A DNA stretch of 64,000 nucleotides from Verrucomicrobium sp. (GTDB lineage: Bacteria > Verrucomicrobiota > Verrucomicrobiia > Methylacidiphilales > GAS474): contig JAPWJX010000003.1 of NCBI GenBank assembly GCA_028283855.1, positions 682,001 through 746,000 of the forward strand, read 5' to 3'. Both the position numbers and the translations under genes were made by a program. The notes beneath the pieces were generated by a model that was not told the origin of the DNA, searched no databases, and saw only the letters and a program-made list of their open reading frames with translations. Positions 35,875 to 42,150 of this stretch are shown here, piece by piece; the first letter of the stretch is position 1; every line of letters begins with the position of its first letter.

Positions 35875-37589
35875 AGAACGGCCTGCTCATCGTCGCCGAC
35901 CGGCGGCTCCCCGCCTCATGGGAGAAGGCGCTGGCCTTGGAGGAGGCGGCCCGCCGGGAAGGCCGCAGCGCCGTCCTGCGCGACGCGGCGGAGCTGGAAA
36001 TCCCCCTCGATTTCATCGGCCACGTCGGCGAGGCCCCCTTCCGTGAGGCCTATCTCCATATCTTGCGCTCGATCTACGCGGTGCTGGGCCGCTTCTACGA
36101 GATGGCGGAGATCGTCGCCGTTCCGCCGCTGCCCGATCCGGTCCGGCACGCCCTGAGCGACGTGGAGGGCCTCCGCTTCCGCGTGGAGGAGGCCGCGCCC
36201 GCCGCTCCTGCGGCCGAGGCGGCGGAGCCGCCTGCGGCCTTCTCCTCCGCCCTGGTCGTGGCGCAGGACGTGATGCCGCACAGCACGAAGACCTCGGAGG
36301 CGATCCTGCGGGCCTGCCGCGCCCTGGGCCTGCCCGCCGTGGCGCGGGACGGCTCGATCCTGCGGCTGATGGCCGACATCGAGTCCCAGTTCGTCGCCGA
36401 CCCGGAGGCGGCGTGGGCGGAGGCGCGGGAGCGGGTGCGGGGCCTGTACGGCGCCACGGTGCGCGAGCACGCCCGCCCGGGCGGTCCTGGCGCGGCGGTC
36501 CTGGCGCTCGACCTTAACTGGTTCTTCGACGAGGCCCTCTTCCTCGACGATCCAGCCGTCTCCCGCATCTACTCCTTCTGGTTCGACGACCCGAAGGCCT
36601 GGTGCGCCTATCCGAACACGTGTTTTCCGGGCGCGCTCGACCGTTTCCAGGCCGCCCTCCGCCATCCCAAGGTTCTGCACTGCTGTTACGGTCAGGGGCA
36701 GCGGGAGGAGCTGCACGCGTTGGGCATCACGGGCACGCGCCTGAGCTACCTGGCGGCCGCCCCGGAGTATCTCCGTCACCGGGCCGCGCCGGAGGTGACG
36801 GCCCGCGCCTCCTTCATCGGCAATCCGGGGCTGCGCATCCCGCCCACCCCGCAGATCCTGGCCCTGCTGGAAAGGGGGGCGGAGCTGCCGGAGATCCGGG
36901 AGGAGGCCCGCCGCGCCGCCATGGCTCACGCCATGGTTTATCTGCACAAGCCCTTGGCGAAGGAGCCGGCCGTGCGGGCCCTCCTCGCGCAGGCCCTGGT
37001 CATGCGGGCGGCGGAGCCCTATGTCTCCGCCACCGCCCTGCTGGTCCGCGCCGGGCGGGACTACCCCGGCGCGTTGGAGGCGATCAATGAGGCGGGGGAA
37101 ATTCTCAACGCCGCGATGTTCGTGAAGATGACCAACCAGTTCGACCGCCCCGCCCTGGTCCACCGCCTTTGGAAGGCGGGACTCCTGGACGTTTACAGCG
37201 CGCAGGGGGAGTGGGAAAAATACGGCGTGAAGTCGGCCCCCGATATTCCTTTCCCGCAGCTGCCCGCCGCCTACCAGCGCCACGCCTGCCATCTGAACGG
37301 CTACAACTCCTTGCGGGACGCCACGGCCAACGAGAAGCTTTTCGAGATCGCCGCCTGCGGCCGCGTGTCCGTCAACCTCCTTTCCCCCGACGTCCGCCAC
37401 TGCTATGCCGACGGGGAGGTGGCCTGCGCCCGTTCCCTGGAGGAAGCGGAGGCGCAAGTCCGCCGCTTTCTCTCCGATCCCGGCGAGGCGCTGGAGTGGG
37501 GCGATCGGGCCCGCCGCCGCACGGCCCGGCAGCATCTGTGGACCCACCGGCTGCGCGACTTGTTCGCCCAGGAGGCGGGCGGGCGATGA
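35871..37589 (+). CDS. CgeB-like glycosyltransferase
   Basis: A 572-residue protein with GTG start at 35871, overlapping the preceding stop. An N-terminal region with unknown role precedes a glycosyltransferase part similar to CgeB/DUF3880 proteins: IYSFWFDDPKAWC, then RASFIGNPGLRIPP, and near the C-terminus NEKLFEIAACGRVSVNLL with HCYADGEV, the typical acceptor loop of GT1-like enzymes. The gene at 42169-43443 is a shorter paralogue (TAAFWFDDPYRP; RVFQTTACARPLL). Probably a protein or polysaccharide glycosyltransferase of the flagellin island. Confidence 0.72.
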   Translation: MKNGLLIVADRRLPASWEKALALEEAARREGRSAVLRDAAELEIPLDFIGHVGEAPFREAYLHILRSIYAVLGRFYEMAEIVAVPPLPDPVRHALSDVEGLRFRVEEAAPAAPAAEAAEPPAAFSSALVVAQDVMPHSTKTSEAILRACRALGLPAVARDGSILRLMADIESQFVADPEAAWAEARERVRGLYGATVREHARPGGPGAAVLALDLNWFFDEALFLDDPAVSRIYSFWFDDPKAWCAYPNTCFPGALDRFQAALRHPKVLHCCYGQGQREELHALGITGTRLSYLAAAPEYLRHRAAPEVTARASFIGNPGLRIPPTPQILALLERGAELPEIREEARRAAMAHAMVYLHKPLAKEPAVRALLAQALVMRAAEPYVSATALLVRAGRDYPGALEAINEAGEILNAAMFVKMTNQFDRPALVHRLWKAGLLDVYSAQGEWEKYGVKSAPDIPFPQLPAAYQRHACHLNGYNSLRDATANEKLFEIAACGRVSVNLLSPDVRHCYADGEVACARSLEEAEAQVRRFLSDPGEALEWGDRARRRTARQHLWTHRLRDLFAQEAGGR

Positions 37590-39355
37590 GCGCCGTCGCC
37601 CCGCTCATGGCGGCCCTCCAGCAGGGCCGGATCGACGAGGCCGCCGTCCTGCGCGGCCTGGAGCCGGTCCTGGCCCAGGACCCGACGCAGCCGGAGGCGC
37701 TGAGCGCGGCCGGCTTCTGCCTGCTGCGGCTGGGGAAGGCGGCGGAGGCGGTCCAGCTCCTCGACCTGGCGCTCCAACGGCAGCCGGACCACTGGATGGC
37801 CCGCGTGAATCGGGCGGAGGCGCTCCGTGCCGCCGGGCGCCCCGCGGAGGCGGCCGCCGATTACGAGCGGGCGCTGGCCCAGCGCGCCCACCCGGAGCTT
37901 TGGGTCAATCTGGCCGCCGCGCTCCAGGCCGCGGGCGGCCCGGCGGCGGCCCGCGCGATCCCCGCGTTGGAGGAGGCCCTCCGCCTCGACCCCGATTCCT
38001 TCGCCGCGTGGAATAACCTGGGCCTCCACCGGGAGGACGCCGGGCAGATGGAGGAGGCGCTGGCCTGCTTCGAGAAGGCGGCCTCCCTGGTGCCTCCCGG
38101 CACGGAGGAGGAGAAGGAGGTGGCGGAAAATCTTCAGCGCCTCTTCTTCGAAAAGGGGGAGGCTCACCGGAAGGACGAGACACCCGGGGCGGCGGACCGC
38201 GCCCGCGCGTTTTACGAGGGGGCGATTGCCCGTTATCCCCATTTGGCCGGGCTTTATTTGAGCCAGGGCAACTTCTGGCTCGACCAGTGCGAGATGGAGC
38301 GCGCCCGCGCCACCTTCGCCAAGCTCCTGGAATTGGAGCCGGAAAACCCTGTCGGGCTGGTCAATTACGGGGTGGCGCTCAATTTCCTGGGGCGGCCCCA
38401 GGAGGCTCTGGACTGCTATGCCCGGGCGGAAAAGCGGAACCCGGATGAGGAGGTTTCCGCCCGCCTCCGCTGGAACCGGTCCTTTTCCCTTCTGGCCCTG
38501 GGGCGGCTGCGGGAGGGGTTCCGGGACTACGAGGAACGCTTCGGCCAGGGGCACGTGCCCCGGCTTTCCGGCCTGCGCTGGGAGGGGGGTGCTTTTTCGG
38601 GAAAAACCCTTCTCCTCCAGACGGAGCAGGGTTTCGGTGACGCCATCCAGTTTGTCCGCTACGCGGTGCGGGCCAAGGCGCTCTCTCCGGACGGGCGGGT
38701 GGTGGCGGCCTGCGGCCCGGCGCTCACGCGCCTTTTTCAAAGGGCCCGGGGGATCGACGCCGTCGTCCCCCTGGATAATCCGGGGCCTTACGATTTTCAG
38801 ATCCCTCTCATGTCCCTGCCGCTGGTTTTCGGCACGGAGGCGGCGACGATCCCGGGGGAGGTTCCCTACTTCGACCTGCCCGCGGGGCCCCGCGCGCCGG
38901 GCCCGCTCCGGATCGGCCTGGTCTGGTCGGGCAATCCGAAGTTCCAGAACGACCGGCGGCGTTCCTGCCCGCTTTCCCTTCTGGCGCCGCTGGGCGCCCT
39001 GCCCGGCACGGAGTGGCACAGCCTGCAATACGGCCCGGCGGCCGGGGAGGCCGCCGCCCATCCCTGGCTGCGCGGCGCCCCGGCGGACCTGGCCGATTTT
39101 TACGAGACGGCCCTGCGGATGCAGGAGCTGGACCTGATCCTCTCCGTCGACACGGCGGCGGGCCATCTGGCGGGGGCGCTGGGGCGGCCTCTTTGGTTTC
39201 TGTTGCCCCACGCTTCCGAGTGGCGCTGGCTGCGGGATAGGGACGATTCTCCCTGGTATCCCACGGCGCGCCTCTTCCGCCAGCCGGCGGAGGGGGATTG
39301 GGCCGGGCTGGTCCGGGCGCTGGAGGCGGCGCTGCGCGAAAAGGCCCGGAAATAG
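37586..39355 (+). CDS. TPR protein with GT9-like glycosyltransferase domain (3 of 3)
   Basis: A 589-residue protein, the longest of the three. Many TPRs cover about 1-320 (AAWNNLGLHREDAGQMEEAL, LVNYGVALNFLGRPQEALD). The glycosyltransferase part has TEQGFGDAIQFVRYAV, RIGLVWSGNPKFQNDRRRSC, DTAAGHLAGALGRPLWFLLP and WYPTARLFRQP. ATG 37586 overlaps the stop of the CgeB-like gene. It is the last gene of the operon and is followed by a hairpin shared with the convergent flagellin gene. Confidence 0.8.
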   Translation: MSAVAPLMAALQQGRIDEAAVLRGLEPVLAQDPTQPEALSAAGFCLLRLGKAAEAVQLLDLALQRQPDHWMARVNRAEALRAAGRPAEAAADYERALAQRAHPELWVNLAAALQAAGGPAAARAIPALEEALRLDPDSFAAWNNLGLHREDAGQMEEALACFEKAASLVPPGTEEEKEVAENLQRLFFEKGEAHRKDETPGAADRARAFYEGAIARYPHLAGLYLSQGNFWLDQCEMERARATFAKLLELEPENPVGLVNYGVALNFLGRPQEALDCYARAEKRNPDEEVSARLRWNRSFSLLALGRLREGFRDYEERFGQGHVPRLSGLRWEGGAFSGKTLLLQTEQGFGDAIQFVRYAVRAKALSPDGRVVAACGPALTRLFQRARGIDAVVPLDNPGPYDFQIPLMSLPLVFGTEAATIPGEVPYFDLPAGPRAPGPLRIGLVWSGNPKFQNDRRRSCPLSLLAPLGALPGTEWHSLQYGPAAGEAAAHPWLRGAPADLADFYETALRMQELDLILSVDTAAGHLAGALGRPLWFLLPHASEWRWLRDRDDSPWYPTARLFRQPAEGDWAGLVRALEAALREKARK

Positions 39356-39417: not shown

Positions 39418-40233
39418 TTAGAGGTTCTGGATCAGGCTCAACACGTTCTTCTGAACGGAGTTCGCCTGGGACAGAGCTGCCGTGGCGGACTGGACCAGGA
39501 TGTTGTACTTGGACACCTCGGTCGAGGCCTGGGCGACATCGAGATCGGCGATGGCGCTGTTGGCGGCGGTCAGGTTGGTCGATTCCGTCTGCATGTTCTG
39601 GCTGTAGAAGTTGAACTTGGAGATGTCCGCGTTCACCTTCGCGCGCCGGGTCGTGATGCAGGTCAGGGCCGCGTTGACGGCGGTGAGGGCGGCGGTGGCC
39701 AGGGACGTGGTGCTCACCGAGTAGGTGCCCAAGCCCAGGCTGGTCGCATTGCCCACCGTGGTCAGCGAGAGGCTGTCCGCATGCCCCTGGGAGTCGATGG
39801 AAACGCTGATGCTCCCGGAGGTGAACAGCGTGGTACCGTCGAAGCCCGCATTGGAAGCGATCGTGCTGATCTGGCTCTGCAGGTTCTGGAACTCAACGTC
39901 GTAGTTGGCGAGGTCGCTCGTGCCGAAGGCACCGTTAGTCGCCTCTTGGGCCAGTTCCGACATGCGGGTCAACTCGGTCTGGATAGTCGAGAGGAAGCCG
40001 TCGAGGGTCTGGGCCGCGGAAACGACCGCGTTCACGCCATTAACGCCCGCATTCAGGCGGGTGATCTGGGCGGAGAGATTTCCGCTCACTGCCAGACCCG
40101 CTGCGTCCGCGCTGGCAACCGACAGTCGAGAGCCCGAAGAGAGCTGCGAAAGGGATTGCGTCAGCGCGTTGTTGTTCTTGTTGAGGTAATACGTGGCCTG
40201 CGTGGCCGCGATATTCGTGGAGATAACTGCCAT
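39418..40233 (-). CDS. Flagellin 1
   Basis: A 271-residue filament subunit, short because it has only the D0/D1 core. The N-terminus MAVISTNIAATQATYYLNKN and SQLSSGSRL, with NAGVNGVNAVVSAAQTLDG, and the C-terminus ILVQSATAALSQANSVQKN are flagellin-like. The conserved C-terminal R-A-x-x-G-A-x-x-N-R box is replaced by RRAKVNADISKFNF, and there is an unusual Cys in ALTCITTRRA. A good ribosome site (AAAAGGAG) sits before the ATG. It is about 90% identical to flagellin 2 by eye. It needs FliS (8843) for export. Confidence 0.93.
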   Translation of the reverse strand: MAVISTNIAATQATYYLNKNNNALTQSLSQLSSGSRLSVASADAAGLAVSGNLSAQITRLNAGVNGVNAVVSAAQTLDGFLSTIQTELTRMSELAQEATNGAFGTSDLANYDVEFQNLQSQISTIASNAGFDGTTLFTSGSISVSIDSQGHADSLSLTTVGNATSLGLGTYSVSTTSLATAALTAVNAALTCITTRRAKVNADISKFNFYSQNMQTESTNLTAANSAIADLDVAQASTEVSKYNILVQSATAALSQANSVQKNVLSLIQNL

Positions 40234-40317
40234 AGAACTCCTTTTCCGTATTCCCAGGGAGGGCCCCGGGCGCTGGAATCATTCCAGACTCGCCGAATTC
40301 CGGGCTTCGGCAGCCCC

Positions 40318-40336
40318 GACCGACTTCCTGTCAGTC
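40318..40336 (-). promoter_or_regulatory. AGGA-loop hairpin in flagellin 1 leader (CsrA-site-like)
   Basis: On the minus strand GACTGAC-AGGAA-GTCGGTC forms a 7-bp stem with one G-T pair and the loop AGGAA. CsrA sites are hairpins with GGA in the loop (consensus ACANGGANGU). It lies between the promoter and the ribosome site. The same position in the two other flagellin leaders also has an AGGA-loop hairpin with different stem bases. Confidence 0.55.
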
Positions 40337-40346
40337 CGTATTACGT

Positions 40347-40374
40347 TTTTCGGAAGGAGATGGCAGCGACTTGA
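40347..40374 (-). promoter_or_regulatory. Sigma-28-type promoter of flagellin 1
   Basis: Minus strand: TCAAGTCG (TCAA at 40374-40371), 16 bases from the end of TCAA to TCCGAAAA (40354-40347). Six of eight -10 positions match GCCGATAA. About 113 bases separate it from the ATG at 40233, giving a long leader. Confidence 0.6.
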
Positions 40375-40417
40375 GGTTTTTTTTCAAAAATTCAACGCCA
40401 CGCGAAACCCCGCCGCA

Positions 40418-40442
40418 CCCCTCCCCCCGTCAGGGGGAGGGG
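40418..40442 (-). terminator. Terminator-like hairpin after flagellin 2
   Basis: A strong G/C stem, CCCCTCCCCC paired with GGGGGAGGGG around a short loop, lies 27 bases past the flagellin 2 stop. No T-run follows directly; an A/T-rich stretch comes about 30 bases later. It may act with Rho or as a 3' stabiliser. Confidence 0.5.
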
Positions 40443-40468
40443 CGGCCGGCGAGGGGAACTGCCCGGGA

Positions 40469-41284
40469 TTAGAGGTTCTGGATCAGGGTTAACACATTCT
40501 TCTGCACACTGTTAGCCTGGGACAGAGCCGCCGTGGCGGACTGGACCATGATGTTGTACTTGGACACCTGCGTGGAGGCGGCCGCCACGTCAAGGTCGGC
40601 GATGGCGCTGTTGGCCGCGGTCAGGTTGGTCGCTTCCGTCTGCATGTTCTGGCTGTAGAAGTTGAACTTGGAGATGTCCGCGTTCACCTTCGCGCGCCGG
40701 GTCGTGATGCAGGTCAGGGCCGCGTTGACGGCGGTGAGGGCGGCGGTGGCCAGGGACGTGGTGCTCACCGAGTAGGTGCCCAAGCCCAGGCTGGTCGCGT
40801 TACCCACCGTGGTCAGCGCCATGCTGTCCATGTGGCCTTGGGAGTCGATGGAGACCCCGATGCTGCCCGTGGTGAACAGCGCGGTGCCGTCGAAGCCCGC
40901 GTTGGAGGCGATGGCGCTGATCTGGCTCTGCAGGTTCTGGAACTCCACGTCGTAGTTGGCCAGGTCGGTCGTGCCGAAGGCGCCGTTGGTCGCCTCCTGG
41001 GCCAGTTCCGACATGCGGGTCAACTCCGTCTGGATGGTCGACAGGAAGCCGTCCAGGGTCTGCGCGGCGCCCACCAAGGCGTTCACCCCGTTCACACCCG
41101 CGTTGAGGCGGCTGATGGAAGCGGTGAGATTGCCGCTGACCGCCAGGCCCGCCGCGTCGTTGCTAGGGATCGCCAGGCGGGAGCCCGAGGAAAGCTCGGA
41201 CAGCGACTGGGTCAACGCGGTGTTGTTCTTGTTGAGGTAATACGTGGCCTGGGTGGCCGCGATGTTCGTCGTAATGACTGCCAT
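40469..41284 (-). CDS. Flagellin 2
   Basis: A 271-residue flagellin nearly identical to flagellin 1, starting MAVITTNIAATQATYYLNKN and ending VQKNVLTLIQNL. Differences concentrate near residues 37-52 and the end of the D1 loop. It has the same unusual Cys (ALTCITTRRA). The ribosome site is AGGAG nine bases before the ATG. It has its own promoter and hairpin leader; flagellin 1 follows after 235 bases, so each gene seems to be its own transcript. The two likely arose by tandem duplication together with their leaders. Confidence 0.93.
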   Translation of the reverse strand: MAVITTNIAATQATYYLNKNNTALTQSLSELSSGSRLAIPSNDAAGLAVSGNLTASISRLNAGVNGVNALVGAAQTLDGFLSTIQTELTRMSELAQEATNGAFGTTDLANYDVEFQNLQSQISAIASNAGFDGTALFTTGSIGVSIDSQGHMDSMALTTVGNATSLGLGTYSVSTTSLATAALTAVNAALTCITTRRAKVNADISKFNFYSQNMQTEATNLTAANSAIADLDVAAASTQVSKYNIMVQSATAALSQANSVQKNVLTLIQNL

Positions 41285-41376
41285 ATACTATTACTCCTAA
41301 GTTCCGTCCGATTCATTCGGGCGGCACCGGGAATTTCTTCCCGGCCTTTCGCCGGATTCGAGGCTCCGGCCGCCTT

Positions 41377-41397
41377 CAGCCGACATCCTATCGACTG
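41377..41397 (-). promoter_or_regulatory. AGGA-loop hairpin in flagellin 2 leader (CsrA-site-like)
   Basis: Minus strand: CAGTCGA-TAGGATG-TCGGCTG. The stem pairs with compensatory changes relative to the flagellin 1 hairpin, while the loop keeps AGGA; ATAGGATG is close to the CsrA consensus core. It is downstream of the promoter and about 93 bases before the ATG. Confidence 0.55.
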
Positions 41398-41407
41398 CTT
41401 ACTCCTT

Positions 41408-41435
41408 ACATCGGCGGCCGGGGGGGGAGACTTTA
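41408..41435 (-). promoter_or_regulatory. Sigma-28-type promoter of flagellin 2
   Basis: Minus strand: TAAAGTCT (TAAA at 41435-41432), 16 bases after TAAA, then GCCGATGT (41415-41408). The best promoter match of the set; the ATG is 123 bases downstream. Confidence 0.72.
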
Positions 41436-41959
41436 GAAAAAAATGAAAAAAGGCACGACGGGGCCTTCGGCGTCCGGATTTTAAGCCGAAGCCGCTGGGC
41501 CGGAGCGTCTGCCACGTTCCTGCTGCGGAACCGGTCCGTTCCCCGTTTTTATGCGGGAAGAACCGGTTTCGATCCCCTGCGGGATCGAGGTGCGGTGGGA
41601 TTTCCGCCGCCGGACCGGGAGTCGGTGCGGGGGGTGCCATCCATGGCGCAAGGCGGCTTTGGGGCGCGGGCGTTCTTAGAGCGCGGCCAGGTCCTGCGAG
41701 GGCGCGGCCCAGGCCTGCGGCGGGTGCGCCGCCGGCGGGGATCGCGGATCGAAGGTCCTGGAGCGTGGAGGACGCCTGGCCTTTTAAGGGGGGCTTGCGT
41801 CAACCGCTTCCTGCGGAACCGTCCTTTTCCTGGCGGAACAAGGAGGTTTCGGCCGGGGAGGCCGAGGTGGGGGGCTTAGGCATGGGGCAGCGCGGCAGAG
41901 CCGGGCTGGGCCATGACAGGATTAGAGGGATGCCATCGGGGAGGCAGGGGCCACGCGTT
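41436..41959. other. Decayed region between flagellin 2 promoter and a flagellin remnant
   Basis: About 520 bases with no convincing gene. It begins with an A-rich stretch and includes two similar segments, near 41505-41545 and 41796-41835, each reading GCGTC, then TTCCTG, CGGAACCG, TCC, suggestive of a short direct repeat. No flagellin coding sequence beyond the first codons of the remnant could be recognised, so the body of a third flagellin gene has been deleted or mutated away. Confidence 0.5.
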
Positions 41960-42010
41960 TCAGGTGGCGGGCGGTTTTGGGAAACCGCGCTTCGTGGCAA
42001 GAACTGCCGT
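41960..42010 (-). pseudogene. 5' remnant of a third flagellin gene
   Basis: On the minus strand AAAAGGAGGTCTT-ACG-GCAGTTCTTGCCACGAA closely matches the flagellin 1 start region AAAAGGAGTTCT-ATG-GCAGTTATCTCCACGAA. The start codon ATG is ACG (42010-42008). Only about seven codons align; the frame then reaches TGA at 41962-41960, with a perfect hairpin (GCGGTTT/AAACCGC) at 41971-41988. Promoter and leader upstream remain recognisable. Confidence 0.75.
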
Positions 42011-42095
42011 AAGACCTCCTTTTCTTTCTGTCCGAATCTTTCGGCCAGGCTGGAATCATTCCAGGCTTTGCCGGATTCCGGGCTCCGGCGGCCTC

Positions 42096-42112
42096 ACCGA
42101 CTTCCTGTCGGT
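42096..42112 (-). promoter_or_regulatory. AGGA-loop hairpin in the remnant flagellin leader
   Basis: Minus strand: ACCGAC-AGGAA-GTCGGT, a perfect 6-bp stem with AGGAA loop, at the same place relative to the promoter as in the two intact flagellin leaders. Flanking segments (GGAATGATTCC, CCGGAATCCGGC) also match. Confidence 0.55.
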
Positions 42113-42122
42113 TCTACATTTT

Positions 42123-42150
42123 GCTTCGGCCCCCGGGAGGGCCGACTTGA
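42123..42150 (-). promoter_or_regulatory. Sigma-28-type promoter of the flagellin remnant
   Basis: Minus strand: TCAAGTCG (TCAA at 42150-42147), 16 bases, GCCGAAGC (42130-42123). It still looks usable and would transcribe the decayed region toward flagellin 2. Confidence 0.5.

Follow-up and report, generated by a model that had tools for sequence, protein, structure and literature searches.

In one order of Verrucomicrobiota, the leaders of flagellin mRNAs carry a short hairpin with the loop AYGA at the place where flagellin leaders elsewhere in the phylum carry a hairpin with the loop ANGGA. The leader sequences suggest that the loop moved from ANGGA to AYGA in this order, whereas its place remained unchanged. 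CsrA holds leader hairpins and thereby prevents premature flagellin synthesis; to our knowledge, it has been studied in few phyla, and its GGA has been treated as fixed. From the sequences of leaders, genes and proteins we infer that flagellin mRNAs of this order are probably repressed post-transcriptionally through binding of CsrA and released by FliW. The CsrA-FliW control of flagellin would thereby likely extend to the phylum Verrucomicrobiota, for which a search of the open-licence literature found no published account of it; Verrucomicrobia are not named in the list of phyla that may use FliW, as far as the extract of PMC4682653 gives that list. The order comprises Methylacidiphilales-like Verrucomicrobiota, a placement based on the names attached to its loci. 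It retains CsrA and FliW as well as the design of the leader but alters the loop in a conserved slot, whereas sister groups keep ANGGA. This raises the question of whether the CsrA code is able to drift or a second factor takes part in the flagellin checkpoint.

Flagellin leaders of the window

The window, the whole stretch of 64,000 nucleotides analysed here, contains two flagellin genes and three leaders, called leaders 40233, 41284 and 42010 after the position that each precedes. Their features are the following.

39418..40233, minus strand: flagellin of 271 aa (Flagellin_N, Flagellin_C), with the ribosome-site GGA at 40241-40239
40234..40346, minus strand: predicted leader of flagellin 39418-40233, transcription start inferred
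40374-40347, minus strand: sigma-28-like promoter TCAAGTCG-N12-TCCGAAAA, serving flagellin 39418-40233
40318..40336, minus strand: 5'-terminal hairpin GACUGAC[AGGAA]GUCGGUC with an N-less CsrA-type loop
40291..40312, minus strand: second hairpin UGCCGAA[GCCCGGAA]UUCGGCG with GGA in the loop
40273..40287, minus strand: AYGA hairpin CUGGAA[UGA]UUCCAG with the loop A-U-G-A, the ribosome-site GGA being 38 nt away
40469..41284, minus strand: flagellin of 271 aa (Flagellin_N, Flagellin_C), 91% identical to 39418-40233
41285..41407, minus strand: predicted leader of flagellin 40469-41284, start inferred
41435-41408, minus strand: sigma-28-like promoter TAAAGTCT-N12-GCCGATGT, serving flagellin 40469-41284
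41377..41397, minus strand: 5'-terminal hairpin CAGUCGAUA[GGA]UGUCGGCUG with an AGGA loop, A-GGA-U around the loop
41351..41370, minus strand: second hairpin GCCGGA[GCCUCGAA]UCCGGC, without the GGA of the other two copies
41309..41321, minus strand: AYGA hairpin CCGA[AUGAA]UCGG, which occupies the order-wide slot; the ribosome-site GGA (41297-41295) is 18 nt away
42011..42122, minus strand: orphan leader with hairpins, ribosome-site GGA and the start ACG at 42010, TGA after 16 codons
42150-42123, minus strand: sigma-28-like promoter TCAAGTCG-N12-GCCGAAGC of the orphan leader
42096..42112, minus strand: orphan-leader hairpin ACCGAC[AGGAA]GUCGGU
42070..42089, minus strand: orphan-leader second hairpin GCCGGA[GCCCGGAA]UCCGGC
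42050..42064, minus strand: orphan-leader AYGA hairpin CUGGAA[UGA]UUCCAG

The initial annotation had reported a hairpin with a constant AGGA loop in all three flagellin leaders and had read it as a target of CsrA under release by FliW. The three hairpins exist on the minus strand (40318-40336, 41377-41397 and 42096-42112) with an unvarying AGGA loop. Their stems differ yet pair, through one two-sided change from A-U to G-C and three one-sided changes via G-U in an alignment with the pairs assigned by eye. Only two of them, however, precede intact flagellins, because the third stands before the defective start at 42010. The leaders, described as longer than 110 bases, measure about 105-120 nt when counted from the predicted transcription start. 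A GGA in the ribosome site, also reported, is present in all three leaders, but this discriminates poorly since the same would hold for every gene whose ribosome site is strong. In each of the three leaders, the AGGA hairpin follows the end of the -10 box of the sigma-28-like promoter at a distance of about 10 nt and therefore lies near the predicted 5' end of the mRNA. Both intact leaders thus described have a GGA-loop hairpin upstream, and the distance from the AGGA loop to the ribosome-site GGA is 87-91 nt in these two working leaders. The 5'-terminal hairpins of the window have the canonical A(N)GGA loop in its N-less form. According to the extract of PMC4005645, loops without the looped-out N bind RsmE with a 10- to 1000-fold lower affinity, so the AGGA loops of the window would be weak CsrA loops.

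The share of 200 shuffles reaching the observed number of GGA-loop hairpins was 0.165 for leader 41284, 0.010 for leader 40233 and 0 for leader 42010. Over 23 leaders of the order, there were 14 such hairpins compared with 2.0 +/- 1.3 after shuffling (maximum 7, 200 shuffles), a contrast which, like the other shuffle-based contrasts below, is inflated by related leaders. Of 2839 randomly drawn 112-nt segments from the part of the window that lies outside the cluster, 7.5% carried an AGGA- or ANGGA-loop hairpin and 8.1% one with an AYGA loop; both kinds occurred together in 0.35%. A single AGGA or ANGGA hairpin is accordingly not striking in this GC-rich window.

The initial annotation had held that its reading would fail if relatives lost the AGGA loop while keeping their flagellins. 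This is partly the case: G004, G010 and G020 have flagellin together with CsrA and FliW but no AGGA- or ANGGA-loop hairpin in the scanned leaders, and G017 keeps flagellin without a GGA loop and without a detected csrA, whereas several other leaders of the order, including those of the window, have additional AGGA or ANGGA hairpins further upstream. GGA-loop hairpins are missing in some or all flagellin leaders of three genera of the order despite the presence of CsrA. We ruled out the AGGA loop as an order-wide element, as leaders f3 and f9-g9 are without AGGA loops; the order-wide element is a different hairpin, with the loop AYGA, which the annotation had not listed. The earlier observation was therefore real but mis-scoped, and its interpretation was likely right in kind. 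The co-occurrence of csrA, fliW and flagellin and the excess of GGA loops over shuffles speak for that interpretation, and the restricted distribution of AGGA, the orphan state of one leader and the N-less loops speak against it.

Over 65 nt, leader 42010 shares 86% identity with leader 40233. At its end, ATG is replaced by ACG, followed by a short likeness to the first flagellin codons and then by TGA after 16 codons, and tblastn detected no flagellin across the following ~590 bases (41420-42010). This orphan leader (42010-42150, minus strand, with at least three hairpins) may represent either a remnant or an RNA sponge for CsrA that derives from a dead flagellin gene. The ~590 bases at 41420-42010 are gene-free and harbour a number of inverted repeats, GC-rich and related to one another, around GGTTCCGC/GCGGAACC. 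The flagellin genes within 39418-41284 are identical over long parts of their 3' halves, as gene conversion might leave them. They are flanked on one side by a glycosyl transferase-like gene (PF13524; 42169-43443, minus strand) and on the other by a TPR gene that weakly matches Glyco_transf_9 (37568-39352, plus strand). The DNA flanking the flagellin clusters of G001 and G002 resembles by eye that of the window. The fourth flagellin-like gene of the genome (L027, G000:C4:122145-122882) has 44% identity and is without a clear start.

The proximal hairpin inside and outside the order

A genome scan with one flagellin protein gave no match, and a scan with a flagellin alignment gave 17 loci. The order set consisted of 31 flagellin leaders, including the orphan leader. 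Elsewhere in the phylum, 74 leaders with an alignable start were taken from about 130 listed flagellin matches, comprising 61 leaders and 13 others from flagellins behind csrA. G000d, for which no start was found, was left out of the hairpin counts and the slot test, and G004_C50 was left out of the proximal count. Partial flagellins without the N-terminus (L016, L020, L025 and L028) and G304:54798 with its internal start were left out throughout, and L190 and L191 were left out of the leader set.

Proximal ANGGA-loop hairpins were found in 48 of the 61 leaders outside the order, with a null expectation of 0.32 (maximum 3, 200 shuffles), and in 6/25 leaders inside it. Proximal AYGA-loop hairpins, in which the loop is one base shorter than ANGGA, showed the opposite distribution, with 15/25 inside the order (null 0.32, maximum 3) and 0/61 outside. 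The expected proximal hairpin was missing in 13/61 leaders outside and 10/25 inside. The 31 leaders of the order contain 69 short hairpins compared with 25 in shuffles, and their loops are far from random: A-N-G-A occurs 34 times versus 2.0 (maximum 6, 300 shuffles), including 13 AGGA versus 0.55 and 20 AYGA versus 0.82. Neither an ANGGA nor an AYGA hairpin was found anywhere in the scanned stretches of G004_C99, G004_C96, G017_C227 and G063. Likewise, a proximal ANGGA or AYGA hairpin is absent from all 13 flagellins located immediately behind csrA and from all five sigma-54-type leaders of the order. The former are further flagellins outside the order (L110, L111, L117, L120, L123, L125 and others) without a leader hairpin. 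A second flagellin type with the sigma-54-like promoter TGGCAYG-N5-GGTGCT and without a CsrA-type hairpin (L022, L030 and L029) occurs in all three genomes of its genus.

The two loops occupy the same slot. The GGA in the ANGGA loop and the ribosome-site GGA are separated by a median of 21 nt (range 17-42) in 46 leaders outside the order, and the corresponding distance, measured from the G of AYGA, has a median of 21 nt (range 18-39) in 15 leaders of the order. We evaluated the pairing of the flanks with the motif picked by position alone, at 17-26 nt from the ribosome-site GGA, using shuffled 3' arms as the control. AYGA stands in the slot in 14 of 26 leaders of the order, with 93% of flanking cells paired compared with 59% after shuffling (maximum 74%). 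Outside the order, ANGGA stands there in 44/61 leaders, with 69% against 44% (maximum 55%). In the reverse combinations, no flank pairing beyond shuffles was observed, either for ANGGA in the slot inside the order (3/26 leaders, 48% vs 44%) or for AYGA in the slot outside it (13/61 leaders, 37% vs 41%). The position-only test was preferred to our earlier covariation counts, which were stronger but biased upward because the hairpins had been picked partly by stem energy. The proximal hairpin loop 21 nt before the ribosome site thus carries no GGA as the rule in the order.

Some leaders combine both kinds of loop. ANGGA hairpins lie just upstream of AYGA hairpins in G002, G001 and G062, and two G062 leaders carry UGA and GGA in the same hairpin, CGGCCACA[UGA]UGUGGCCG and CGGCCACA[GGA]UGUGGCUG. 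The leaders of G010 and G020 have AYGA hairpins with the GGA loop absent. Two further structures were considered and dropped. Pairing of the AYGA loop with the first codons was abandoned by eye since the partner letters are missing in G010 and G039. A hairpin around the ribosome-site GGA, which by eye seemed conserved in nine leaders, was rejected as chance by flank shuffles and control genes: stems of at least three pairs enclose this GGA in 18/30 leaders compared with 19.7 expected, and in 14/19 control genes of the window.

A model of the AYGA hairpin with ribosome site and start was run over 13 whole genomes. Each of its 16 matches with E < 0.1 fell on a flagellin leader, namely the 13 leaders used to build it, one identical paralogue, a leader of G028 and the orphan leader of the window (E 0.045). 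Seven weaker matches had E values from 0.14 to 0.53. Leader 40233 was missed because its AYGA hairpin sits 38 nt from the ribosome site. No Rfam family reached its gathering score in the window, and at 14 loci of relatives, with E up to 1, Rfam yielded only three weak ncS011 matches far below the cut-off.

CsrA, FliW and the reading of the AYGA loop

The search for csrA and fliW that the initial annotation had recommended found both genes adjoining in the genome of the window, so that its reading did not fail for want of csrA. There is one csrA (C5:108044-108187, E 2.5e-20, above the Pfam cut-off) with one fliW directly upstream (C5:107663-108019, E 4.4e-28), in the gene order flgL-fliW-csrA. 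Among 60 genomes of the order, csrA was found in 10, fliW in the same 10 and flagellin in 10, nine genomes being common to all. The two exceptions, G012 with csrA and fliW but no flagellin match and G017 with flagellin but neither csrA nor fliW, are both assemblies in many contigs. Over the 40 flagellin-bearing genomes of the phylum (38 from a phylum sample of 387 and two MAGs), csrA was present in 39 and fliW in 38. Because csrA and fliW stand side by side and occur in the same 10/60 genomes, nine of them with flagellin, the CsrA-FliW control can be inferred with good support.

The CsrA encoded in the genome of the window retains R6 and R44 and extends ~40 residues past residue 50. R6 and R44 are conserved in all 49 CsrAs compared, 12 from the order and 37 others. 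The 12 differ from the 37 at R29 (12/12 vs 0/37), R31 (12/12 vs 2/37), S/T/A45 (12/12 vs 0/37) and D/A/E48 (12/12 vs 0/37), and they have L4 in eight cases and I in four. According to PMC4005645, Gln29 and Arg31 of RsmE contact the RNA stem and Arg44 contacts the loop A. Strongly shifted positions number 11 of 50 in the order and 5, 5 and 8 in three other clades, which gives weak support to the substitutions in the order's CsrA being special; positions 29 and 31 are variable in all clades compared, and the changes may be mere descent because all come from one clade.

In the proposed mechanism, a CsrA dimer would hold a leader hairpin with one face and the ribosome-site GGA with the other, and this bridging would keep ribosomes off the flagellin mRNA until the export of flagellin frees FliW, which would then remove CsrA. 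Outside the order, the leaders fit the anatomy of C. jejuni flaA directly. The likely upstream CsrA sites in the window would be the 5'-terminal AGGA hairpins together with, in two copies, the GGA of the second hairpin, and upstream AGGA loops within the order are plausibly CsrA sites, if weak ones. CsrA bridges sites 10-63 nt apart according to the extract of PMC7652899, a range that includes the 21-nt median of the proximal slot; the 87-91 nt between the AGGA loop and the ribosome-site GGA would exceed its upper limit unless folding shortens the distance.

The AYGA hairpin occupies the bridging slot but has no GGA. Changing GGA to UGA in SL1 of C. jejuni raised FlaA, and leaders with mutated GGA bound CsrA 4- to 10-fold less, according to the extract of PMC4894983; RsmE reads A(N)GGAX through its protein backbone, and the motif "cannot be substituted", according to that of PMC4005645. 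Therefore, either the order's CsrA has changed, or the site is weakened, or another factor reads AYGA. In the window, the AYGA hairpin would probably be a derived form of the proximal CsrA site. It is conceivable, and we propose it tentatively, that the RNA code of CsrA has drifted in this order, so that a CsrA with order-wide substitutions reads A-Y-G-A as its proximal site in the same slot. If this is true, the core GGA, which is held to be irreplaceable, would be replaceable.

Rather unlikely, in our view, is that an RNA-binding factor other than CsrA has replaced it in the proximal slot and reads the AYGA hairpin, and that CsrA acts only via the upstream AGGA/ANGGA hairpins where these are present. 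The C. jejuni mutants and the backbone recognition by RsmE speak for such a factor, as do the coexistence of ANGGA and AYGA hairpins in G002, G001 and G062 and the leaders of G010 and G020 with AYGA and no GGA loop. However, AYGA shares the slot and the 21-nt median spacing with the ANGGA outside the order, a single hairpin has UGA in one G062 leader and GGA in another, and no candidate factor is known. It is improbable that the 5'-terminal hairpins merely shield the mRNA from decay, with incidental loop letters: the AGGA hairpins lie near the RNA 5' end, ~10 nt past the -10 box, in all three window leaders, which favours this reading, but a hairpin serving stability alone would not fix its loop, and the loops are far from random both in the 31 leaders of the order (A-N-G-A 34 vs 2.0) and outside it (ANGGA in 48/61). 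Chance hairpins in GC-rich DNA combined with a recent duplication of leaders, to which the 86% identity of leaders 40233 and 42010 and the 7.5% of random window pieces would point as the source of the likeness among the three copies, are largely refuted and very improbable because the enrichment extends to numerous diverged leaders and genomes and because covariation of the stems is seen in a slot selected without reference to pairing.

Comparison with known systems

The reading that we prefer, the control of flagellin by CsrA and FliW, has its closest model in C. jejuni flaA. As far as the extract of PMC4894983 describes it, an ANGGA in a loop and an ANGGA at the ribosome site, 21 nt apart, bind CsrA there, mutating either site raises FlaA, and FliW antagonises CsrA. 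The leaders of the phylum share with flaA a two-site design, in which an ANGGA-loop hairpin precedes by ~21 nt another GGA that overlies the ribosome site. Compensatory changes that preserve the stems, a sigma-28-type promoter and the presence of both csrA and fliW are further common features (PMC4894983). Unlike flaA as the same extract presents it, the leaders described here are ~110 nt long instead of 45 nt and have extra upstream AGGA hairpins, no significant hairpin corresponding to SL2 is present around the ribosome site, and the proximal loop in this order is AYGA instead of ANGGA.

In B. subtilis, FliW binds the extended C-terminus of CsrA (extract of PMC7652899). Similar to the hag system in that extract, csrA and fliW adjoin near flgL, CsrA has a C-terminal extension, and one CsrA site is predicted upstream and one over the ribosome site. 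The phylum, the leader length and the AYGA loop differ from hag. The AGGAA loops of the window also recall SL3 and SL4 of RsmZ bound by RsmE, which have five-base A-GGA-X loops without the looped-out N (extract of PMC4005645). Those, however, are hairpins of an sRNA that sequester RsmE, and AYGA loops are absent from the set that this extract covers.
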